A stretch of DNA of 55,658 bases, taken from Deltaproteobacteria bacterium RIFCSPHIGHO2_02_FULL_43_33 (GTDB lineage Bacteria > Desulfobacterota > GWC2-55-46 > UBA9637). The position numbers were made by a program, and so were the translations under genes. This document shows positions 28,080 through 38,568 of this stretch, one piece after another. How positions within the stretch are numbered: the first letter of the stretch is position 1; every line of letters begins with the position of its first letter. Where the stretch lies: NCBI GenBank assembly GCA_001798165.1, contig MGRL01000069.1, positions 1 through 55,658 on the forward strand. Reading direction: 5' to 3'. The notes below the pieces were generated by a model. The model was not told the origin of the DNA, did no database searches, and saw only the letters and a list, made by a program, of their open reading frames with translations.

Positions 28080-28457
28080 ATGCACTCTATCCAGATTGTC
28101 GCCATTATTATTAGCCTTGGTATTTTGATAAGCGTTGTAGACCTTATAAGACGGGGCATGCTGAAGGAACAGTATGCTATCCTATGGCTTGCATCAGCAG
28201 TTGTTTTATTGGTGCTCTCCATGTGGAGGGGGCTGTTAGATAATATTGCCCGCGCAACAGGTATCGCATATCCGCCGTCTCTTCTCTTTTTGGTGGCATT
28301 CCTGTTTCTTCTTTTAATCGTGCTGCACTTTTCCGTAATTATATCCAGCTTGAGCGAAAAAAACAAAAAACTCAGCCAGGAGATTGCAATATTCAAAACA
28401 TTTTTTGAAGAACATAAAAAAGAAGGAGGAAAAAATGAGCATAGAAAAGGTTTTTGA
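28080..28457 (+). CDS. DUF2304 membrane protein
   Basis: 125 residues. Three hydrophobic segments (about 5-20, 33-50, 68-90) with RRGMLKEQYAILWLASAVVL between, and a charged coiled-coil tail (SLSEKNKKLSQEIAIF). This is the DUF2304 pattern. Function unknown; it regularly accompanies polyprenyl-P sugar synthases of the GT2 family. Its end overlaps the next start by 23 bases. Confidence 0.87.
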   Translation: MHSIQIVAIIISLGILISVVDLIRRGMLKEQYAILWLASAVVLLVLSMWRGLLDNIARATGIAYPPSLLFLVAFLFLLLIVLHFSVIISSLSEKNKKLSQEIAIFKTFFEEHKKEGGKNEHRKGF

Positions 28458-29673
28458 AAGTAAAAGGTTTCACCTGTGGGCAGGTCTGCTGATTGCAATA
28501 TCATCGCTTATAGTATATTCCAACACATTTCATGCCAGCTTTCACTTTGATGACACGCCGCAGATTGTGGAGAACTACAGCATAAGAAATTTAAGCAATT
28601 GGTTTGATATAGTGAGAGGGCAGCGCGGCATAGCAATGTTAACCTTTGCCATAAACTACGCCATAGGAGGGCTTAATGTTGCCGGCTATCACATCGTAAA
28701 TCTTGCTATTCATATCACAAACGGCATATTGGTATATTTTCTCATTTTTCTTACCCTTGGAACTATTGACCTGGGGACAGATTTCAAATCTGATAAAGCC
28801 AAAAAGATAGCTGTCTTTACTGCGCTGCTCTTCGCTGTTCACCCTATCCAGACCCAGGCTGTAACATACATTGTCCAGAGGATGGAAGCCCTTGCATCAA
28901 TGTTCATGCTCATCGGCATTTTATTTTTCGTAAAAGGGATAAAGGCATCAAACACATCTGCAAGGATACTCCTCTATGGGGCTGTAGCTGTTTCCTATCT
29001 TCTCGGTTTCTATTCCAAGGAGATGGCCATAACCCTGCCTGCCCTTATATTTCTCTATGACTACTGCTTTATCGCAGGCAATGATATAAAGAAACTCGCG
29101 CCCCGGCTGCCGTTATATGTTGTCTTGCTCATAATGCTGGCCTTTTTGGCTGCGCCAACCTTTACCGGCCTCAAAGAGACGCCTGGTGAATCAGTAGGTT
29201 TTGGCGTTCAGAGCATAACACCAAAGGAATATTTATTTACCCAGTTCAATGTGCTTATATATTACATCACCCTGCTCTTTGTGCCGATAAACCAGAACCT
29301 TGATTATGACTTTCCTATATCAAAAGGGCTTTTTGAGATTCCTGCTGTAAAGGACGGCACCATATTAAACTTCCCTATTCCGCCGGCCTTTATATCCCTC
29401 ATGATTATTCTATCTATTGTTGGGGTTGCCATTTACCTTTTTACACGTCACGCACAACGTATCACACAACATGGCCGTTTAATCGCCTTTTTCATATTGT
29501 GGTTTTTCATCATTCTTTCCCCTACATCAAGTTTTATACCGATAATAGATGTAATATTTGAGCACAGGCTCTATCTTGCCTCTGTCGGCTTTTTTGCGCT
29601 GTTCAGCCTTGCATTGGACAGATTTTTTGAATATCTGGAGCAAAGAAAGGATAAGGTTGGGGTTAAGGTGTAG
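28435..29673 (+). CDS. TMTC-like membrane glycosyltransferase, N-terminal membrane half of a split gene
   Basis: 412 residues from ATG 28435 after AAGGAGGAAAAA. Many membrane spans. The first loop has FHFDDTPQIVENYSI with the Asp-Asp pair expected of GT-C enzymes, then LTFAINYAIGG, AVHPIQTQAVTYIVQRMEAL, GFYSKEMAITLPALIFLYDY and EHRLYLASVGFFAL. Bacterial relatives continue straight into a membrane helix and TPRs; here a heptamer hairpin at 29650-29710 introduces a stop, and the TPR half restarts at 29712 in another frame. A REP-like palindrome at 28771-28792 is read in frame as DLGTDFKSDK in a loop. Probable role: transfer of a polyprenyl-linked sugar in the periplasm. Confidence 0.85.
   Translation: MSIEKVFESKRFHLWAGLLIAISSLIVYSNTFHASFHFDDTPQIVENYSIRNLSNWFDIVRGQRGIAMLTFAINYAIGGLNVAGYHIVNLAIHITNGILVYFLIFLTLGTIDLGTDFKSDKAKKIAVFTALLFAVHPIQTQAVTYIVQRMEALASMFMLIGILFFVKGIKASNTSARILLYGAVAVSYLLGFYSKEMAITLPALIFLYDYCFIAGNDIKKLAPRLPLYVVLLIMLAFLAAPTFTGLKETPGESVGFGVQSITPKEYLFTQFNVLIYYITLLFVPINQNLDYDFPISKGLFEIPAVKDGTILNFPIPPAFISLMIILSIVGVAIYLFTRHAQRITQHGRLIAFFILWFFIILSPTSSFIPIIDVIFEHRLYLASVGFFALFSLALDRFFEYLEQRKDKVGVKV
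28771..28792. repeat. REP-like palindrome translated inside the TMTC-like gene
   Basis: CTGGGGACAGATTT is followed by CAAATCTG; the CAGATTT/AAATCTG part is a perfect palindrome. It has the same core as the 39 bp palindrome at 39837. Confidence 0.7.
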
Positions 29674-29710
29674 GCTGAAAATTTCTTTACGCTTAACCTT
29701 ATAACCTTAT
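29650..29710. repeat. Heptamer array that splits the TMTC-like gene
   Basis: Left words GATAAGGTTGGGGTTAAGG, right words GCTTAACCTTATAACCTTA, which pair. The left arm contributes the last codons and TAG stop of the upstream half; the next ATG follows 1 base after the right arm. Confidence 0.8.
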
Positions 29711-29711
29711 T

Positions 29712-30353
29712 ATGTCAGCCTTAAGACTTACAATTTCTACAACCCTGCTGCTTCTTCTTTCCATTGCAACTTTTGAGCGAAATTACGTCTGGAATGACCG
29801 TATTGTCTTCTGGTCGGATGTGGCGCTAAAATCTCCCCACAGGACCCGCTCCCACAATAATCTGGGGTCTGCCCTCATAGCGGCAGGCCGCTGTGGTGAT
29901 GCCATGCCTTCACTCATGCAATCTGTTAAGATTGACCAATGGTATATAGAGCCGCATTACAATCTTGCTATCTGCTATGTTAAAAAGAATCGTTTTGACG
30001 CTGCAATACCTGAACTTGAAAAGGTGATTAGTATAAATGTTGTCTTGAAAAAAGGGCATTATGGGGTTTCAACAGCGCCCAGATTTGAGATGCAGGCGCA
30101 CTCAACTCTGGGCAACATATACAATATGAAGGGTATGTTTGATAAGGCTGTTTTCCATTTCCAAGAGGCGTTAAAATTATCGCCAAAAGACGCTGTTACC
30201 CGTTTCAACCTTGCATTGACATACGAGACGATGGGGATGTTAAAAGAGGCTAAGGCAGAGCTTGAAGAGGTTTTAAAAATAAACCCCATGGACGAAGGGG
30301 CAAAGAGGGGCATAAAAAGGCTTGGGGCGGCTGCTGATATGGGCAAACAGTGA
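29712..30353 (+). CDS. TPR protein, C-terminal half of the split TMTC-like gene
   Basis: 213 residues. One membrane helix (about 5-20) is followed by the linker TFERNYVWNDRIVFWSDVAL and KSPHRTRSHNNLG, then about four TPRs (AMPSLMQSVKIDQWYIEPHY; AIPELEKVISIN; AVFHFQEALKLSP; AKAELEEVLKINP). Intact bacterial relatives have this region fused to the membrane half that ends at 29673. It may still be made separately and work in trans. The linker is shared with four other proteins at 33421, 35881, 36376 and 37110. Confidence 0.87.
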   Translation: MSALRLTISTTLLLLLSIATFERNYVWNDRIVFWSDVALKSPHRTRSHNNLGSALIAAGRCGDAMPSLMQSVKIDQWYIEPHYNLAICYVKKNRFDAAIPELEKVISINVVLKKGHYGVSTAPRFEMQAHSTLGNIYNMKGMFDKAVFHFQEALKLSPKDAVTRFNLALTYETMGMLKEAKAELEEVLKINPMDEGAKRGIKRLGAAADMGKQ

Positions 30354-30737: not shown

Positions 30738-30789
30738 TGTAGGGCGAGGCTTTAGCCTTGCTTAAGCAACCCTAAAGGGTTGCCCTACT
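30738..30789. repeat. Cruciform REP element, copy 3 (variant)
   Basis: TGTAGGGC and GCCCTAC close two inner hairpins (AGGCTTTAGCCT and ACCCTAAAGGGT). It lies just before the ANTAR regulator and contains its alternative TTG start. Confidence 0.8.
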
Positions 30790-30797
30790 TGATTTTT

Positions 30798-31418
30798 ATG
30801 ACATCAAAAACAACAAAAAAAAAGCCAATCTCTGAAGATGCTATAAAGGTCCTTATTGCAGAGGATAATGCTGTTTCCAGAAAGTCTCTCTCCTCTCAGC
30901 TTGAATCACTCGGTTTTAATGTGGTTGCTGCGGCAGCCACAGGCGAAGAGGTATGCAGCCTCTTTCCTGAGCTTAAGCCAGACCTCATCATAATGGACAT
31001 TAAAATGCCGAAGATGGACGGCATAGAGGCTGCAAAGGTTATCACCAAACATGCCTCTATCCCCATAATCCTTGTAACAGGCCATTCCTCTGAGACTGTG
31101 ATTAGCAGGGCAATGGAGAGCGGCGTCGGCGTATTTGCCTATCTTTTAAAACCGATAACCAAAAAAGACCTGCTTCCTGCCATAAAGGTCGCCTTTGCCA
31201 GGCATAATGAATTTCAGACCCTAAAAAGCGAGTTCAGCGATTTAAAGGATGCCCTTGAGACAAGAAAGCTGGTTGAACGGGCAAAGGGCATTCTCATGAA
31301 ACGTCTGACCATCCCTGAGGATGAGGCATTTAAACTCCTCCAGACCCAGTCCCAAAAAGAAAACAAAAAACTTAAAGAAATAGCAGAGACCGTAATAACC
31401 GCAAGCAGGATGCTATAA
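30798..31418 (+). CDS. Response regulator with receiver and ANTAR RNA-binding domains
   Basis: 206 residues from ATG 30798; TTG 30780 would start inside a REP. The receiver domain has KVLIAEDN, the phosphoacceptor Asp in LIIMDIKMPKMDG, ILVTGHSS and YLLKPITKKDL. After a coiled coil the ANTAR domain reads RKLVERAKGILMKRLTIPED and ends in LKEIAETVI. ANTAR proteins bind paired hairpins in leader RNA and prevent termination. It is encoded 0.6 kb upstream of an mRNA leader with two hairpins (31994-32049), which makes that leader a candidate target; this is inference. No sensor kinase is adjacent. Confidence 0.92.
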   Translation: MTSKTTKKKPISEDAIKVLIAEDNAVSRKSLSSQLESLGFNVVAAAATGEEVCSLFPELKPDLIIMDIKMPKMDGIEAAKVITKHASIPIILVTGHSSETVISRAMESGVGVFAYLLKPITKKDLLPAIKVAFARHNEFQTLKSEFSDLKDALETRKLVERAKGILMKRLTIPEDEAFKLLQTQSQKENKKLKEIAETVITASRML

Positions 31419-31430
31419 ATAAATACAGAC

Positions 31431-31505
31431 TATGGGCGATAGGCAATAGGCTATGGGTAAAGAGGACGATATATAAATACAGGCAATGGGCTATGGGCAA
31501 TGGGT
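31431..31505. repeat. Heptamer array (ATAGGCA/CTATGGG type), left of the four-helix-bundle gene
   Basis: GATAGGC AATAGGC TATGGGT and, further on, CAGGCAATGGGCTATGGGC in 7-base steps. The start codon of the gene at 31500 is part of the last word (CAATGGG). Confidence 0.8.
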
Positions 31506-31898
31506 AGAAAAGGCTTTAAAGATTTGATTGTCTGGCAAAAGGCTAAAGACCTCGCAGTTGCTATTTATAAACTGAGTGGAGGAGGAGATTTGGGGCGTGA
31601 TTTTGGCTTACGAGATCAAATTAGACGCAGCGCTGTAAGCATTGCCGGTAATCTGGCTGAAGGAGATGAACGAGATACCGACAAAGAGGCAGTTCATTCT
31701 TTCTATATTGCGAAAGGTTCCCTTGCTGAATTACAGAGCCAGATTCTAATTGCTTATGAGATTGGATATCTTAAAAAAGAGGTTTATGAGAATATTAGCG
31801 CAGATTACAGTGAATTGGGCAAAGTGATTGGTAAACTCATAAAATACAGGCGAGGGGCTATGAAGGCAGGCAATAGGCAAGAGGCGATAGGGCTATGA
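31500..31898 (+). CDS. Four-helix-bundle protein (23S rRNA intervening-sequence protein family)
   Basis: 132 residues. FKDLIVWQKAKDLAVAIYKL, GLRDQIRRSAVSIAGNLAEG, FYIAKGSLAELQSQI and a final helix LGKVIGKLIKYR match the IVP/S23-like family. Function is not established; some members are encoded in elements inserted in 23S rRNA genes and relatives serve diversity-generating retroelements. The ATG lies in a heptamer array and the last 15 codons run into a second one, with no normal ribosome site. The arrays left and right are partly inverted to each other. A second family member is at 38200 with the same arrangement. Confidence 0.88.
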   Translation: MGRKGFKDLIVWQKAKDLAVAIYKLSGGGDLGRDFGLRDQIRRSAVSIAGNLAEGDERDTDKEAVHSFYIAKGSLAELQSQILIAYEIGYLKKEVYENISADYSELGKVIGKLIKYRRGAMKAGNRQEAIGL

Positions 31899-31956: not shown

Positions 31957-31984
31957 TTGACATATTTTAATTTTTAGGTAGAAT
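31957..31984 (+). promoter_or_regulatory. Sigma70 promoter of the OmcS-like cytochrome gene
   Basis: TTGACA (31957-31962), a 16-base spacer, then TAGAAT (31979-31984). The predicted start is about 31990, giving a leader of about 130 nt. Confidence 0.75.
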
Positions 31985-31993
31985 AGACCTTAA

Positions 31994-32049
31994 GTAAGCG
32001 CTGATGGCGGTGCTTATATTTAAAGTGCAGAGGTGATGGCGCCTCAGTG
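31994..32049 (+). ncRNA. Structured 5' leader with two hairpins showing the same loop
   Basis: Hairpin 1: GTAAGCGC (31994-32001), loop TGATGGCG, GTGCTTAT (32010-32017), eight pairs. Hairpin 2: GAGG (32030-32033), loop TGATGGCG, CCTC (32042-32045), with further pairs beyond an A/A mismatch. The stems differ in sequence but the 8-nt loops are identical, which suggests selection on structure. A short GCC-GTAA-GGC hairpin and a T run follow (32050-32064). Possible target of an RNA-binding antiterminator such as an ANTAR protein, or an unknown riboswitch. Confidence 0.5.
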
Positions 32050-32121
32050 GCCGTAAGGCTTTTTGAGGTTTTTTATCTTTTAACCCAAGGCTTCGGTCTA
32101 AAAAATAAAAAGGAGGAAGGT

Positions 32122-33411
32122 ATGAAAAGACTTATTTTAATAGCCTTATTAGCACTTGGCTTAGGGTTTGGATTGACCCTGATGGCATCAACACCATCAA
32201 TGGCAGTTCACAAAGGTTCAGGCGATTTGACTTGCGGCAGCTGCCATACAATGCACAGCAGCCAGGGCGGCACATCTAGTCCTTCAATGGGCGGCGCAAC
32301 CGGCGCCCTCATCCTGCTGAGAAACTCGCTGGTCACAGGCAGAGAAACCATCCATCAGCTTTGCCTTCAGTGCCATGCAGCAGCTGGAACGCAGGGTGGT
32401 GTTCAGTTTAACGCCTGTCCCGGGACAGCTTGCACAACCCCGCCAAAGGTGTTGCTTACCTCAACCGATGCGTGGAATACGACTAAGGACTTTTCTACAA
32501 TCGGAGCAGGCGGCGACTTCCAATTTGTTGGAAGTTATGTTTCCGGTAGCTATAATAGCACTCAGGATGGCGGAACCGCACTCGGAAGAGGCCACAGCAT
32601 AGGAGGGACAGTCATCGCACCTCCAGGCAACGGTTCTACAGTGGGTACGATTGCAACGTTTAGCTGCACAACCTGCCATGACCCGCATGGAACATCAGCT
32701 ACGACCTCAACTATTAACATATACAGAAACCTTAAGGGAGGTATAGTGGCAGGGGCAACTGATAAAAATTGGTCAAATATGCTGACTAACGGTAATATAG
32801 GCACTTCTTATGTAGGCGGTCCAACTGGCGCTTCAGATGATAACAGCCTGGGAACAACCCCTACAGGTGGTTCTGGTATTGCCGCTTCAAACAATATTTG
32901 GCCGACGTATAGGTCATCTGGCACCCAGAATTCATATAGCACCAGTACTACTCCGCCAACCCTTGGTGGAACTGCTTTAACTGGTCTAGACGGCACCGGC
33001 TATACCCTTATGTCTGCATTCTGCGCCCAGTGCCATAGCTTATGGCATGAAAATGTAACAACAGGAAACAAGACCGGCTCTGATTGGAATAGGCACCCTG
33101 TGGACAACAGGATTTCAGATACCTCTTCTGCTTCAGGCGCTGGCGTAACCATTACAGACTTTACCCACTACAATACCAATATCGCAGCAGGTTTTAAACT
33201 CCCAGCTGCTAATGATGCTGGTAGTGCATTCTACTACGCAGATAACTCAGGCGACAAGGTTTTCTGTCTGTCTTGTCACTTTGCGCATGGCAGCCCATAC
33301 TATGACATCCTGAGATGGGATTACATAGCTCAGATAGATGCTGCTGGTGGCAGCCAGACCGGCAACGGCGTGGCATCAGTCAAAGGTTGTCAGCAGTGCC
33401 ATAACAGGTAA
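32122..33411 (+). CDS. Hexaheme c-type cytochrome, OmcS-like (probable extracellular nanowire subunit)
   Basis: 429 residues from ATG 32122 after AAGGAGGAAGGT; GTG upstream at 32047 lies in the leader. A Sec signal peptide (to about 33, SMA) precedes six CxxCH motifs: CGSCHTMH, CLQCH, CTTCHDPHG, CAQCH, CLSCHFAHG and CQQCH three residues from the C terminus. Number, order and surrounding blocks (CHTMHSSQGG, GGDF, GRGH, CHDPHG, NRHP, terminal CxxCH) match what I know of Geobacter sulfurreducens OmcS, also about 430 residues with six hemes. OmcS polymerises into conductive filaments outside the cell. Same role is inferred. Monocistronic by position: own promoter, and a strong terminator at 33458. 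Confidence 0.88.
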   Translation: MKRLILIALLALGLGFGLTLMASTPSMAVHKGSGDLTCGSCHTMHSSQGGTSSPSMGGATGALILLRNSLVTGRETIHQLCLQCHAAAGTQGGVQFNACPGTACTTPPKVLLTSTDAWNTTKDFSTIGAGGDFQFVGSYVSGSYNSTQDGGTALGRGHSIGGTVIAPPGNGSTVGTIATFSCTTCHDPHGTSATTSTINIYRNLKGGIVAGATDKNWSNMLTNGNIGTSYVGGPTGASDDNSLGTTPTGGSGIAASNNIWPTYRSSGTQNSYSTSTTPPTLGGTALTGLDGTGYTLMSAFCAQCHSLWHENVTTGNKTGSDWNRHPVDNRISDTSSASGAGVTITDFTHYNTNIAAGFKLPAANDAGSAFYYADNSGDKVFCLSCHFAHGSPYYDILRWDYIAQIDAAGGSQTGNGVASVKGCQQCHNR

Positions 33412-33420
33412 TACGCTGTA

Positions 33421-34182
33421 ATGTCATTGCAAGGAACTTTAGTTCCGAAGCAATCTGAAAAAGGGGGAAGGGAAACCTTCCCCCTTTTTTTCTTTATAGC
33501 CATCCTCGTTTCCTTTGTTTCCTTTCAAAGAAATATCGCATGGGATGAGGAATTGAGCATATGGCAGGATGCGGTTCGTAAGTCCTCTCATAAGGCAAGA
33601 CCACATAGCAACCTTGGCGCGGCCTTTGGAGGTAAAAGGCTTTTTCATGAGGGGGCAAGAGAATCCCGCATCGCCATATACCTGAACCCGTATCTTGCAG
33701 AGGCGCATAACAATCTTGGGAATATATATCTGGAGATGGGGTTGGCGCAGGATGCCTTGAAGGAGTTTCAAGATGCCGTTGAATTAGAGCCGTCGTTTGC
33801 AGTTGCCCATTACAATGCAGGGCTTGCATATAAGGCCATTGGCCTCATGGAAGAGGCTCAAAAGGAGTTTAAGAAGGCAGTTGAAATAAGGCCGTTCTAT
33901 GCAAAGGCCCATAATGAACTTGGCATGCAATATATGACAAATGGCATGTATGAGGCTGCTGTAACGGAATATAACAAGGCGCTGGAAGGCGATAATAGGT
34001 TTGCCCCAACGTATAATAACCGCGGGGTAGTTTATGCGCGGTTAGGCATGTGGGACAATGCCATCAAAGAGTTTCAAAAGGCCATGAGCATAGACCCTGC
34101 ATTAACCGAAGTAGAGAAAAACCTGAAAAAGGCGTATGCCAATAGAGAGGCGGCTGTCAGGAAGGCCGTAAAAAACCCTTGA
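33421..34182 (+). CDS. Membrane-anchored TPR protein with TMTC-type linker
   Basis: 253 residues from ATG 33421. A membrane helix (about 20-37) leads to SFQRNIAWDEELSIWQDAV and KSSHKARPHSNLG, then five TPRs (EGARESRIAIYLNPYLAEAH, ALKEFQDAVELEPSFAVAHY, AQKEFKKAVEIRPFYAKAHN, AVTEYNKALEGDNRFAPTYN, AIKEFQKAMSIDP). The first 20 codons are made of a small inverted repeat (33425-33453) plus a rho-independent terminator (33458-33491) that is translated as part of the anchor, so most transcription from the cytochrome should stop inside this gene. Whether and from where it is expressed is unclear. Role possibly in scaffolding an envelope complex. Confidence 0.85.
   Translation: MSLQGTLVPKQSEKGGRETFPLFFFIAILVSFVSFQRNIAWDEELSIWQDAVRKSSHKARPHSNLGAAFGGKRLFHEGARESRIAIYLNPYLAEAHNNLGNIYLEMGLAQDALKEFQDAVELEPSFAVAHYNAGLAYKAIGLMEEAQKEFKKAVEIRPFYAKAHNELGMQYMTNGMYEAAVTEYNKALEGDNRFAPTYNNRGVVYARLGMWDNAIKEFQKAMSIDPALTEVEKNLKKAYANREAAVRKAVKNP
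33458..33491 (+). terminator. Rho-independent terminator of the OmcS-like gene
   Basis: A 14-bp perfect stem (AAAAAGGGGGAAGG / CCTTCCCCCTTTTT) with loop GAAA and a T tract. It ends 80 bases after the cytochrome stop and lies inside the reading frame of the following TPR gene. Confidence 0.88.
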
Positions 34183-34494: not shown

Positions 34495-34524
34495 TTGACA
34501 TTGCGCACGTCTTTAATATATAAT
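34495..34524 (+). promoter_or_regulatory. Consensus sigma70 promoter; leaderless transcript predicted
   Basis: TTGACA (34495-34500), an 18-base spacer and TATAAT (34519-34524). The ATG at 34531 is 6 bases after the -10 box, exactly where transcription should begin, and there is no room for a ribosome site. Confidence 0.8.
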
Positions 34525-34530
34525 TAAAAA

Positions 34531-35862
34531 ATGAAGCAAATCTATATAAGGTATATCGGCATTTTTTTGCCTTTCCTGTGCATCCTGCTTTGGTCTCCTC
34601 TTCCTGCTATGGGGGCCACCATACAATATCTTTTCAGTATAGACGTTATGGCAAGCGGACAGCCCTTTGTCGGCGTAAGCGCCCTCCTTATAGATAATAA
34701 AAACAGTGAATTGTATGCCCTGGATGATGGGAACAGGCGGCTGGTTATAATGAATCTGGAGGGGGTATTCTTGTATCAATTCACCTATACGGATGCGGGA
34801 ATTAAGAATATGCCTATAGGTATAGCAGTGGCTGATGACGGGAAGATATATATTGCTGAAGGAAAGAGGGTGGTAGTTGTCGATTACAGGGGTATGTATG
34901 ACCACGATATGTCCCTCTCTACTATTCCGGATGCAAATGAGATAAACATACAGTCCGTAGCCATAGATGGCAATACCGTCTACCTCGGCACTGTTGGCAG
35001 GGTAGTGATGATGGATAAAAAAGAAGAGAAATTTATTGCTGAATTTAAAGAGGGTCTGGGACAAAACAACTATATTGCCATGGATTACAACGGGATGTAT
35101 ATAAGAGATCCGGGCGCCCTTATTATCTTTCACCTGGCTAAGGACGGCAAAGTCCTTGGCCACTTTGGCAAGATATCAGGCCTTGCAGGTGGTTTTAGCA
35201 TGACCGTGGATATGGCAGTGGAAAGGAAGAAGGGGTGGGTTATTGTATTAGATATTAACAGGGCTGCAACTATATTTTTTGATAGAGAAGGCAATTTCCT
35301 CTTTGAGTTTGGCGGCCCCGAGCTCTTTAAATGGCCGAGGGCTGTTGCAGCAGACGATGAAGGCAGGATATATGTTACGGATGGAACAGGCAAGATAAGG
35401 GTTTTTCAGATAATAGAAGACGCCCCTGTAATTAAAGAAGCCAAACCCGAGTCAAAACCGGAAATACCATCTGCTGCCCCTCCTCCTGTATCTGAACCCA
35501 AAAAGGATGAGGTGCAGAAGATAGTTGAAGAAGAGGGAAGGCTGCTGCCTCTATTTTTTGCCATAGACAGCGCAAAACTTAAAAAGGCCGACCTTTTAAT
35601 CCTTGATAAAAATGCGGTATGGCTTAAGAAAAACCCTGACGCAAAGATAAATGTGAGAGGTTATGCAGACGAACGCGGCACAGATGAATACAATCTTACA
35701 CTCTCTAAAAAAAGGGCAAAGGCAGTAATGGACTACTTTGTAAAACAAGGCATAGACTCAAAGAGGCAGAAATTTATAGGCTATGGCAAGGAGCTTACAA
35801 CAGACAAGAGTGAAACGGGATTTGCAAGGTCAAGAAGGGTAGATTTTCTTGTAGTAAAGTGA
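34531..35862 (+). CDS. Beta-propeller protein with C-terminal OmpA/Pal domain
   Basis: 443 residues. A signal peptide (to about 29, AMG) precedes an NHL-like propeller (about 35-300; blades such as LLIDNKNSELYALDDGNRRL, IAVADDGKIYIAEGKRVVVV, VAADDEGRIYVTDGTGKIRV). A Pro/Glu/Lys linker follows, then a peptidoglycan-binding OmpA domain (FAIDSAKLKKADLLIL, NVRGYADERGTDEYNLTLS, RSRRVDFLVV). It should tether a protein-binding propeller to the cell wall in the periplasm. Its position between an OmcS-like cytochrome and TPR proteins suggests a part in assembling or anchoring that system; this is inference. Transcript predicted leaderless. Confidence 0.88.
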   Translation: MKQIYIRYIGIFLPFLCILLWSPLPAMGATIQYLFSIDVMASGQPFVGVSALLIDNKNSELYALDDGNRRLVIMNLEGVFLYQFTYTDAGIKNMPIGIAVADDGKIYIAEGKRVVVVDYRGMYDHDMSLSTIPDANEINIQSVAIDGNTVYLGTVGRVVMMDKKEEKFIAEFKEGLGQNNYIAMDYNGMYIRDPGALIIFHLAKDGKVLGHFGKISGLAGGFSMTVDMAVERKKGWVIVLDINRAATIFFDREGNFLFEFGGPELFKWPRAVAADDEGRIYVTDGTGKIRVFQIIEDAPVIKEAKPESKPEIPSAAPPPVSEPKKDEVQKIVEEEGRLLPLFFAIDSAKLKKADLLILDKNAVWLKKNPDAKINVRGYADERGTDEYNLTLSKKRAKAVMDYFVKQGIDSKRQKFIGYGKELTTDKSETGFARSRRVDFLVVK

Positions 35863-35880: not shown

Positions 35881-36357
35881 ATGAAGATTTTACAGTTGTT
35901 TGGCAATATTGCAATGATTGTATTGATAGGATGTTACTCCATGGCAGCTGTAAAAAGAAACGTCGCATGGGGAAACGAGCATATCCTGACTACCGATAAT
36001 ATTTATAAGTCTCCCGGCAAGGCCAGACCCTATCTCAATCGCGGACTCTTCTACTTTAACAAAAACAGGATAGACGATGCCATCAGGGAATACCTGATAG
36101 CGCTTCAGCTTGACCCTGATTATGCCTATGCGCGCAACAATATCGGGGTTGCCTACTACAACAAAGGGTATCTGGATGCCGCAATAAAAGAGCTTACAGA
36201 GGCCATACGGCTGTCCCCTGGTTATGCCGAAGCGCATTATAACCTTGGGATAGCATATGGAGAAAAGGGTCTTGCCCAAGAGGCGTATATAGAGATAAAA
36301 AAGGCCATGGAACTTAATAAGAATCTTGCCGAAGAATTAAAATATTCAAAACCATAG
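35881..36357 (+). CDS. Small membrane-anchored TPR protein
   Basis: 158 residues. An N-terminal hydrophobic stretch (about 5-20) ends in LIGC, which could be a lipobox. The linker KRNVAWGNEHILTTDNIY and KSPGKARPYLNRG is a shortened form of the TMTC-type motif. Three TPRs follow (AIREYLIALQLDPDYAYARN, AIKELTEAIRLSPGYAEAHY, AYIEIKKAMELN). It starts 18 bases after the propeller/OmpA gene, so they probably share a transcript. Function unknown. Confidence 0.85.
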   Translation: MKILQLFGNIAMIVLIGCYSMAAVKRNVAWGNEHILTTDNIYKSPGKARPYLNRGLFYFNKNRIDDAIREYLIALQLDPDYAYARNNIGVAYYNKGYLDAAIKELTEAIRLSPGYAEAHYNLGIAYGEKGLAQEAYIEIKKAMELNKNLAEELKYSKP

Positions 36358-36375
36358 GCATATCAGGATAATTAC

Positions 36376-37104
36376 ATGGAAGGCTCTGTGACAATAAAAA
36401 CACTATTTGCGTTTACCTGCATAATCCCCTTCCTTGCCTTTGTATCTTTCCAGAGAATAGCCGTTTATAAAAATGAGTTCACCCTCTGGGCAGATGTAGT
36501 CAAAAAATCATCTTTAAAGGCCAGGCCGCATAATAATCTTGCAGCCGTATATAAAGACAAAAAGATGTTTAATCTTGCGCTCAACGAATACATGGAAGCA
36601 ATAAGAGTTAACCCCGGGTATGCAGCCGGCCATGGTAATCTTGGAAGTATGTATTATGAACTGGGTAGACTTGATGAGGCTGAGACGGAAGTTAAATTAG
36701 CCCTGACTGCTAATACCCACTTTAAGGATCTGCTCCATAGACTACTGGGTCTTATATATATAAAAAAAGGGGCGCTTGATGAGGCGGCGAAGGAATTTAA
36801 AGAGGCTATAGCCATGATACCAAATTATCCAGATGCCAAGCGAAATATTGCAGTAATTTTCACTAACGAAGGATTTTTATACGCTGATAAGGGAGATTTT
36901 GAACGCGCCCTCGTGCTCCATAGAATGGCAGTTTTTGCAGATTCAGGATATCCTGATGCCCGCTATGGGCTTGCCCAGGCATACGAAGCTTTTGGCCAAA
37001 GGGAAGAAGCGATAAAACAGTGGCAGGAATACCTCAGATTAGCGCCATCAGATGAGCCGTTTAGGAAGGATGCAATGAAACATCTGGAGAGGTTGTGGGA
37101 ATAA
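36376..37104 (+). CDS. Membrane-anchored TPR protein
   Basis: 242 residues. Membrane helix about 8-25, then SFQRIAVYKNEFTLWADVV and KSSLKARPHNNLA, then five to six TPRs (ALNEYMEAIRVNPGYAAGHG, AETEVKLALTANTHFKDLLH, AAKEFKEAIAMIPNYPDAKR, ALVLHRMAVFADSGYPDARY, AIKQWQEYLRLAP). Third member of the 35.8-37.7 kb run, 18 bases after the previous stop. The Asn of the QRN motif is Ile here. Confidence 0.85.
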   Translation: MEGSVTIKTLFAFTCIIPFLAFVSFQRIAVYKNEFTLWADVVKKSSLKARPHNNLAAVYKDKKMFNLALNEYMEAIRVNPGYAAGHGNLGSMYYELGRLDEAETEVKLALTANTHFKDLLHRLLGLIYIKKGALDEAAKEFKEAIAMIPNYPDAKRNIAVIFTNEGFLYADKGDFERALVLHRMAVFADSGYPDARYGLAQAYEAFGQREEAIKQWQEYLRLAPSDEPFRKDAMKHLERLWE

Positions 37105-37109
37105 TAGCG

Positions 37110-37700
37110 ATGCCTTTAAAATCCGAGCTGTTCTTTTTTGCCGCAGTAGGTATTATTTTTTCTATTGTCACATTTCAGAAAAATGTTTTATGGGGAAGCG
37201 AAAAAGGCCTATGGCTGGATATTCTGCAAAAATCACCATCCAAGGCGCGGCCGCACACTAATCTTGGCATGGCCTATGACCTTGATGGCAATATAGCCAA
37301 GGCAGAAGATGAGTATAACAAGGCTATACAATTAGAGCCTGATTATCTTGCCGCATATGCTCCTTTGGCAGTTATGTATGGAAAAAGAGGAGATGTGGAT
37401 AGAGCTATTGAGATGTTTTTGTGGCTTATACCAAGATTGCCTAATCGGGACCCCAAGGCACATACAGGTTTGGGGGTTGCTTACATGATAAAGGGGCTTT
37501 TGAAAGATGCAGAAAGGGAATTTCAGGAGGCATTAAAGATAGATCCAAATTATGAGATAGCACACTACAATCTCGCTGAGATTTATGGGCAGATGGGTTT
37601 AAAGGATGAGGCATTAAAGCATTATAAAATATTTATTGAAAATGCGCCGCCTGCGCAAAAGGAACTGGTTATAAAAATAAAAACAAACTATGGGTTATAG
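37110..37700 (+). CDS. Membrane-anchored TPR protein
   Basis: 196 residues from ATG 37110, with GTG 37095 as the alternative overlapping the previous gene. Membrane helix about 5-22, linker TFQKNVLWGSEKGLWLDIL and KSPSKARPHTNLG, then TPRs AEDEYNKAIQLEPDYLAAYA, AIEMFLWLIPRLPN, AEREFQEALKIDPNYEIAHY and ALKHYKIFIENAP. Last gene of the plus-strand run; a heptamer hairpin follows its stop. Confidence 0.85.
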   Translation: MPLKSELFFFAAVGIIFSIVTFQKNVLWGSEKGLWLDILQKSPSKARPHTNLGMAYDLDGNIAKAEDEYNKAIQLEPDYLAAYAPLAVMYGKRGDVDRAIEMFLWLIPRLPNRDPKAHTGLGVAYMIKGLLKDAEREFQEALKIDPNYEIAHYNLAEIYGQMGLKDEALKHYKIFIENAPPAQKELVIKIKTNYGL

Positions 37701-38110: not shown

Positions 38111-38214
38111 TATAGGTTGAGGTTAAGGGTGATACAGGTTAAGGAAGACCTCAACCTGTATTTTCTTTCCCCTCAACCTTAACATGCTTTTACTTAACCT
38201 TAACCTGTCTTTTT
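38111..38214. repeat. Heptamer array (GGTTGAG / CTCAACC type), left arm of cassette
   Basis: AGGTTGAGGTTAAGGG and ACAGGTTAAGG are followed by ACCTCAACCTGTA, CCCTCAACCTTAAC and TTAACCTTAACCTGTC. The words recur in inverted order at 38572-38608 on the other side of the gene. Confidence 0.8.
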
Positions 38215-38568
38215 ATGCATGAAAGTTATTAGCATATTAATTTCTTTCCAGATGCAAGATATCAGCCCTTCCACATCCTCATACTCAACTTGATTAAAGT
38301 AACCCACTCTTTGTCCGTAAATCAAGTGGCTCTTAGCCTCGGCTAATGAGGCTCGCGAATCGTAGTAAAAATTCAATTTGTCTTTTGTATGTTTTCTGCC
38401 AAAACCTTCGGCAATATTACCGGGGATTGAAAGGGCTGCGCGTCTTATCTGAGAGGTGAGGCCATAATCTTCCTTTCTCGGTAATGTCTCTGTAAGCTTG
38501 AAAATTTTAACAGCCAGTTCCATGGCCATTTGCCAAACAGGCATATCTTCAAAAGAATTGTAGCTCAT
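38200..38568 (-). CDS. Four-helix-bundle protein (23S rRNA intervening-sequence protein family)
   Basis: 122 residues. FEDMPVWQMAMELAVKIFKL, GLTSQIRRAALSIPGNIAEG, FYYDSRASLAEAKSHLIYG and a last helix with ISCIWKEINMLITFM are the family blocks. It shares the core SQIRRAALSIPGNIAEGF pattern with the product of 31500, but they are not recent duplicates. AGGCAGG precedes the ATG. The gene is bounded by inverted heptamer arrays (38111-38214 and 38572-38608), so its transcript could fold with the gene in the loop, like the 23S intervening sequences from which the family takes its name. Confidence 0.88.
   Translation of the reverse strand: MSYNSFEDMPVWQMAMELAVKIFKLTETLPRKEDYGLTSQIRRAALSIPGNIAEGFGRKHTKDKLNFYYDSRASLAEAKSHLIYGQRVGYFNQVEYEDVEGLISCIWKEINMLITFMHKKTG

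Follow-up and report, generated by a model that had tools for sequence, protein, structure and literature searches.

The closest described counterpart of the protein dealt with here is OmcS of Geobacter sulfurreducens (PDB 6EF8, 6NEF), whose filament has 12 histidine heme ligands, of which a subunit provides 11 itself and receives the twelfth, that of heme 505, from a neighbour (PMC6584659). Among four related hexahemes of G. sulfurreducens only OmcS is known to form a wire, polymerisation of its close relatives OmcT, OmcJ and GSU2501 not being known, and it is recognised as difficult to separate true nanowire subunits from other hexahemes by sequence (PMC12977616). What cytochrome filaments do physiologically is itself disputed (PMC11077965). 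OmcS-like proteins are well documented beyond Geobacter (PMC10553843, PMC12545173, PMC10954620, PMC12203936); those of other Desulfobacterota, such as DA_402 of Desulfurivibrio (PMC12545173) and the proteins of syntrophic SRB (PMC10553843), belong to the same superfamily as the protein described here, are likewise exported and come from genomes that also carry a module of a PPIase, a 26-heme, a 16-heme and a propeller protein. This set is a published core of extracellular electron transfer (EET; PMC5539420) and, in Geobacter, a block beside omcS-like genes, termed the nanowire secretion block, has been linked to OmcS maturation and secretion (PMC12977616). As to regulation, the nearest parallel is antitermination by ANTAR-domain response regulators (EutV, NasR, AmiR), with an architecture of two small hairpins, the second of which excludes an intrinsic terminator (PMC3369931, PMC8934654), and a canonical hexaloop with A at position 1 and G at position 4 (PMC3369931).

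The DNA analysed here, called the window hereafter, is a stretch of 55,658 nt that makes up contig C69 of a 2.19-Mb genome (126 contigs, ca. 94 % complete; G000), whose host is an uncultured deltaproteobacterial lineage and not a Geobacter. It contains a gene for an OmcS-like hexaheme c-type cytochrome (32122–33411, + strand, 429-aa precursor), recognised from profile matches, a ligand alignment and a tree. The best explanation of this locus, to which we give a probability of roughly 0.55, is a filament-forming EET cytochrome controlled by antitermination in a leader RNA. The product would be an exported bis-histidine hexaheme cytochrome that acts outside the cell in an EET system, where it would most probably be the subunit from which a filament is built, with its hemes stacked in chain order. 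We are confident that it is a member of the OmcS superfamily and a component of EET.

The gene is translated without interruption into 429 aa plus a stop codon from the ATG at 32122, which is preceded by a Shine-Dalgarno sequence (AGGAGG, 32111–32116, + strand); an alternative start listed for the ORF, GTG 32047, falls inside the leader described below and is not a likely start. Residues 1–28 (32122–32205) read as an export-type signal peptide with cleavage after SMA (STPSMA/VHKG), at a position conserved in the alignments of homologs. Six CxxCH motifs, all on the + strand, start at residues 38, 81, 182, 301, 382 and 423: CGSCH (32233–32247, invariant in the family alignment), CLQCH (32362–32376), CTTCH (32665–32679), CAQCH (33022–33036), CLSCH (33265–33279) and, at the C terminus, CQQCH (33388–33402), with contexts that are, in the same order, CGSCHTMH, CLQCHAAA, CTTCHDPHG, CAQCHSLWHE, CLSCHFAH and CQQCHNR-stop. 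The first-pass annotation was accurate in this respect, having described six such motifs in about 430 residues with the last one C-terminal, as well as blocks CHTMH, CHDPHG and NRHP, all three of which occur in that order. In 20,000 shuffles of the protein the motif count averaged 0.014 and never exceeded 2, and every other ORF of at least 60 aa in the window contains at most one. A 15-bp terminator-like hairpin lies 3′ of the gene (33457–33490, + strand).

A profile of 36 relatives searched against all PDB sequences retrieved OmcS (6EF8/6NEF) as the top match with an E-value of 2.5e-41, far ahead of OmcE (0.0029), pairing positions 28–413 of 413 with positions 2–406 of 407 of OmcS; the same search gave no match to OmcZ. 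OmcS was also first with a profile of 22 close relatives (E 4.1e-23; next match, 0.093), and a profile of the wide set matched it with an E-value of 1.4e-38 (next match, 5.6e-7). Additionally, pairwise BLASTP aligned the window protein with OmcS over almost its whole length (E 7e-9, 25 % identity). The likeness to OmcS that had been proposed therefore extends over the full length of the protein, its best PDB match being OmcS and not a monomeric periplasmic cytochrome, and neither OmcE (tetraheme) nor OmcZ (octaheme) is closest to it by sequence. Both proteins have six CxxCH motifs in the same order, the last one C-terminal, a similar length and the blocks CHTMH, CHDPHG, RHP and CLSCHxAH in common. 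They differ in about three quarters of their aligned residues, in the loop between hemes 5 and 6, which is ca. 31 residues shorter in the window protein, and in the leader RNA of their genes; furthermore, OmcS has been seen as a filament, whereas a filament of the window protein is a prediction.

The heme ligands were compared across 79 aligned sequences, OmcS among them. The ligand positions of OmcS (13, 16, 51, 110, 144, 147, 243, 247, 257, 332, 335 and 404) were assigned by inference, without coordinates, as the six CxxCH histidines plus His16, 110, 147, 247, 257 and 335. All 12 of these inferred ligands have a His counterpart in the window protein, and a failure of the inter-subunit ligands to align, considered beforehand as a sign against a filament, was thus not found. 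Ten of the positions are 99–100 % His over the family, the exceptions being His247 (84 %) and His144 (51 %), the latter because many relatives have a CX5CH third site; His53, 63, 139 and 309 of OmcS have His in no more than 6 % of the family. Residue His16 of OmcS, which we take to be the inter-subunit ligand of heme 5 in the filament (His16–His332), aligns with His45 of the window protein (32254–32256, + strand), the histidine of CHTMH, which is invariant in all 79 sequences; by this alignment, from which the contact is read, heme 5 would be completed by His45 of the next subunit. The counterpart of His2 of OmcS is His30, whose conservation in the whole close family, a difference from OmcS, makes an alternative intramolecular ligand possible.

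In a maximum-likelihood tree of 79 sequences, the window protein belongs to a 27-member subfamily with support of 100/99 that excludes OmcS, is found only in the class of the window genome and comprises a number of ancient groups of paralogs. Next to the subfamily there is a second group of hexahemes from this class; OmcS lies outside on a long branch, accompanied by a single sequence (L012) of an uncultured bacterium. A separate clade holds most of the OmcS-like proteins that were sampled elsewhere in the phylum, and many of these, unlike the window protein, have a CX5CH third site. On this tree the window protein is placed as a member of a paralogous subfamily, not as an ortholog of OmcS, and the grouping with OmcS implied by the first-pass annotation was not recovered; nor does the protein extend the family much, contrary to what had been expected for a host that is not a Geobacter relative, because members from far beyond Geobacter had already been described (PMC10553843, PMC12545173, PMC12203936). 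What is new on the cytochrome side is an OmcS subfamily with multiple copies in an uncultured lineage. Of 41 related genomes, 16 encode homologs that resemble the window protein in length and in the order of the motifs, often in several copies. The window genome itself encodes three close-family members of full length (on C69, C65 and C59); C27 carries in addition an OmcS-like fragment, and C10 a hexaheme that is more distant. The fragment (G000:C27:2283–2903; L004, L056) lies inside its contig, retains only the last three heme motifs and is probably a degraded copy. The first 101 nt of C65 (G000:C65:1–101; L002) are 99 % identical to Deltaproteobacteria bacterium GWF2_42_12 (G002), of the same family as the window genome, against 64–68 % in the rest of the contig, and are a repeat or shared sequence at the contig end. 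The assignment of G002 to GWF2_42_12 comes from L042 and L008, which do not differ over 4344 bases. A seventh CxxCH is situated between hemes 3 and 4 in some subfamily members (L008, L010:7899–9251, L032 and L045).

Structure prediction with AlphaFold2 gave models of low confidence (pLDDT 57 and pTM 0.66 with 36 sequences; pLDDT 63 and pTM 0.67 with 78), and a Foldseek search with them against the PDB returned no meaningful match. Since DALI and Foldseek detect only close homologs in the case of OmcS and OmcE themselves (PMC9473688), this result speaks neither for nor against the OmcS fold. The protein could also be a periplasmic cytochrome or reductase subunit of the generic paired-CxxCH kind that has no relation to OmcS and resembles it through CxxCH alone, as might be thought from the Pfam and NCBIfam searches, which gave only the paired-CXXCH domain, and from a single-sequence phmmer search against the PDB, which yielded neither OmcS nor any other useful match. 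Nevertheless, the nearly full-length BLASTP alignment and a profile match of 386 columns, more than 30 orders of magnitude ahead of other PDB multiheme proteins, strongly disfavour this idea, which we regard as very improbable. A far more substantial alternative, although one that we consider the less probable, is a hexaheme of the OmcS family that takes part in EET without polymerising, as a soluble or surface-bound shuttle or as a terminal reductase, as OmcT, OmcJ and GSU2501 may be. The separate subfamily with several paralogs per genome, the shortened spacing between hemes 5 and 6 and the fact that none of the Geobacter paralogs of OmcS is known to form a wire as OmcS does (PMC12977616) agree with it, and His30, a seventh conserved histidine in the close relatives, could complete the sixth heme within the subunit. 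However, OmcS has an extra histidine too, His2, and yet polymerises, and the histidine of CHTMH did not vary in any of the aligned sequences. Filament formation by the window protein seems to us somewhat likely.

The genes for the PPIase, 26-heme, 16-heme and propeller set have counterparts in the window genome on contig C48, which codes for a PPIC-type PPIase, a 26-heme lipoprotein (54 % identical to its homolog in G025), a smaller cytochrome in which we counted 15 hemes, a six-bladed propeller, a triheme c7 and an HD-GYP regulator. The four core proteins are thus present, although, unlike in the described operon, on a contig other than that of the OmcS-like gene of the window. In two relatives (G017 and G025), the 26-heme/15-heme/propeller module is situated a few kb upstream of the OmcS-like gene. 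We infer that the window protein polymerises and that electrons would reach it via the 26- and 15-heme, beta-propeller and triheme proteins of C48.

Downstream of the cytochrome gene, and also on the + strand, there are a protein with one TM segment and TPRs (33421–34182) and an NHL beta-propeller protein with an OmpA (peptidoglycan-binding) domain (34531–35862), both conserved neighbours of OmcS-like genes, and three further one-TM and TPR proteins (35881–36357, 36376–37104 and 37095–37700). Genes of these TPR and NHL/OmpA types also surround OmcS-like genes in G012, G017, G019 and G025. The motif (F/Y)QRNxxWxxExxLWxDxxxKS is common to the four TPR genes that follow the cytochrome gene. A perfect promoter-like sequence (TTGACA-18-TATAAT, 12/12 matches, 34495–34524) ends 6 nt short of the ATG annotated for the NHL/OmpA gene, so near that the true start of this gene may be further downstream.

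Upstream of the cytochrome gene there is a two-hairpin leader (31994–32074, + strand) whose second hairpin excludes a terminator, as seen by folding in the window and in relatives. The hairpins, P1 (GCGCU-GAUGGC-GGUGC, 31998–32013) and P2 (GAGGU-GAUGGC-GCCUC, 32030–32045), start a few bases after a promoter-like sequence (TTGACA-16-TAGAAT, 31957–31984, + strand) that was recognised by its match to 11 of the 12 consensus positions. The 3′ arm of P2, an antiterminator hairpin, is at the same time the 5′ arm of an intrinsic terminator (CCTCA...TTGAGG followed by T6, 32042–32074), so that the two are mutually exclusive. An Rfam search with the window leader gave only chance matches (MIR396, E 5.9; sn2343, E 2.4) and no family; the fluoride and GEMM riboswitches, considered as identities for the leader, had no Rfam support.

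The distribution of the leader was examined with a covariance model built from seven relatives with equal loops, because an alignment of 11 sequences put the 6- and 7-base loops out of register; the window and C59 copies were left out of the training. The three best matches in the window genome are those upstream of its three full-length OmcS-like genes (C65, E 1.7e-10, a training member; C69, the window, 9.2e-5; C59, 3.2e-4), the next one scoring 0.044. The C48 operon carries the same P2 with a 13-bp overlapping terminator, scoring only E 2.7 with the model, and has in this way the two-hairpin leader in common with the OmcS-like genes. A search of 63 genomes of the class (cut-off, E 0.001) gave 17 matches, 15 of them before OmcS-like genes, one (G005:C40) before a PPIase/26-heme/15-heme operon of the C48 type and one (G015) before the gene of a secreted beta-propeller protein; seven of the 17 are training members, and eight of the other ten precede OmcS-like genes. 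In four newly searched genomes (G278–G281) all four matches were before OmcS-like genes, one of these being the already known RS_11_47 gene. The protein of G015 (G015:C14; L149, L173) is a 1056-aa DUF7948/SBBP beta-propeller, and no OmcS-like gene was detected in that genome. In G002 (G002:C45:50618–50809; L168, L162) two tandem leaders precede the ortholog of the window gene, the first one without a detectable overlapping terminator.

Among 21 distinct leaders, 98.9 % of the cells were paired and four of the nine pairs had changed on both sides; both measures exceeded those of 500/500 shuffles and of all slid controls, with an alignment that was fitted to the model, which favours this result. 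The U-G pair that closes the loop is kept in both hairpins. In 19 of the 21 leaders the 3′ arm of P2 forms a helix with downstream sequence that is followed by a T-rich stretch, and the overlap of P2 and terminator reached a summed score of 375 in 20 leaders, against 89.8 ± 25.3 in dinucleotide shuffles; the terminator test of the window leader alone was weak (p of ca. 0.10). The leader is therefore a structure with covariation and terminator overlap, and this shared leader is the new element of the system.

A response regulator with an ANTAR RNA-binding domain is encoded just upstream (30780–31418, + strand; Response_reg, 1.5e-27; ANTAR, 6.3e-22). Between it and the cytochrome gene there is a gene of the 23S rRNA intervening-sequence-protein family (31500–31898, + strand; Pfam match), probably unrelated; a second gene resembling this family, judged by eye only, is located at 38200–38568 (− strand). 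In our reading, control would occur after transcription start: the leader would fold into the terminator unless P1 and P2 are held in place, for which the ANTAR regulator is the most likely agent, and the same switch would act on the paralogs and on the C48 operon. The leader resembles ANTAR targets in its two hairpins and in the exclusion of the terminator by the second. Unlike these, its hexa- or heptaloops are of the type U-(N)AYGR..-G, closed by U-G, with a consensus N-A-Y-G-R in which G at position 4 fits whereas A is at position 2 and not 1, and its targets are extracellular cytochromes. The position of this A departs from the canonical A1/G4 loop, and with G at 4 and A at 2 we propose an altered loop specificity. 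We found no description of ANTAR control of extracellular cytochromes in the open papers covered by one library.

These loops would also agree with a leader that is a metabolite riboswitch or the target of another RNA-binding protein, the ANTAR gene being a neighbour by chance. In Geobacter, genes of the omcS type are under the control of a cyclic-dinucleotide (GEMM) riboswitch, which points the same way, as does the regulator near the OmcS-like gene in G017 and G025, which is of the HD-GYP and not of the ANTAR type. Against this, no Rfam riboswitch matches the leader, and two like hairpins with the second embedded in a terminator are the ANTAR architecture (PMC3369931, PMC8934654). Moreover, an ANTAR protein is encoded in all 41 genomes. 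In four genomes an ANTAR gene is no more than a few kb away from a cytochrome gene that is OmcS-like or bears the leader: it adjoins the leader in G000, G002 and G010 and an OmcS-like gene in G020. G010 has the following elements in one row: ANTAR regulator, propeller lipoprotein, leader, tetraheme cytochrome and TM-TPR gene. We thus hold a riboswitch or another protein to be a possible but doubtful explanation, and ANTAR antitermination with altered loop specificity to be reasonably probable, the contact between regulator and RNA being deduced from the arrangement of the genes and the architecture of the leader. We would give even odds to the broader proposal that an undescribed leader and an ANTAR regulator with non-canonical loops switch a whole EET regulon, made up of OmcS-like filament cytochromes and the secretion/conduit operon, in this class of uncultured deltaproteobacteria.

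Since genes that share a leader probably function jointly, an RNA switch that assigns some hexahemes to one regulon with the secretion/conduit operon offers an independent handle on which hexahemes are nanowire subunits. If the proposal is true, nanowire production would be decided by transcription antitermination, and the leader suggests a regulatory route to nanowires other than the cyclic-dinucleotide riboswitches of Geobacter.

Further upstream, the region 28384–30353 contains a gene for a multi-TM protein, with no match in Pfam or NCBIfam, followed by a TM-TPR gene. The motifs of the multi-TM product look like those of an O-mannosyltransferase of the TMTC/GT105 type. Ser and Thr make up 24 % of the mature cytochrome, and glycosylation has been reported for OmcS and OmcE filaments (PMC9473688). 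Taken together, these three points make a glycosylation link conceivable. Several ORFs in positions 1–28000 of the window gave, from their translations only, the impression of sugar-nucleotide enzymes and glycosyltransferases, which suggests that the EET genes are preceded by a polysaccharide locus.
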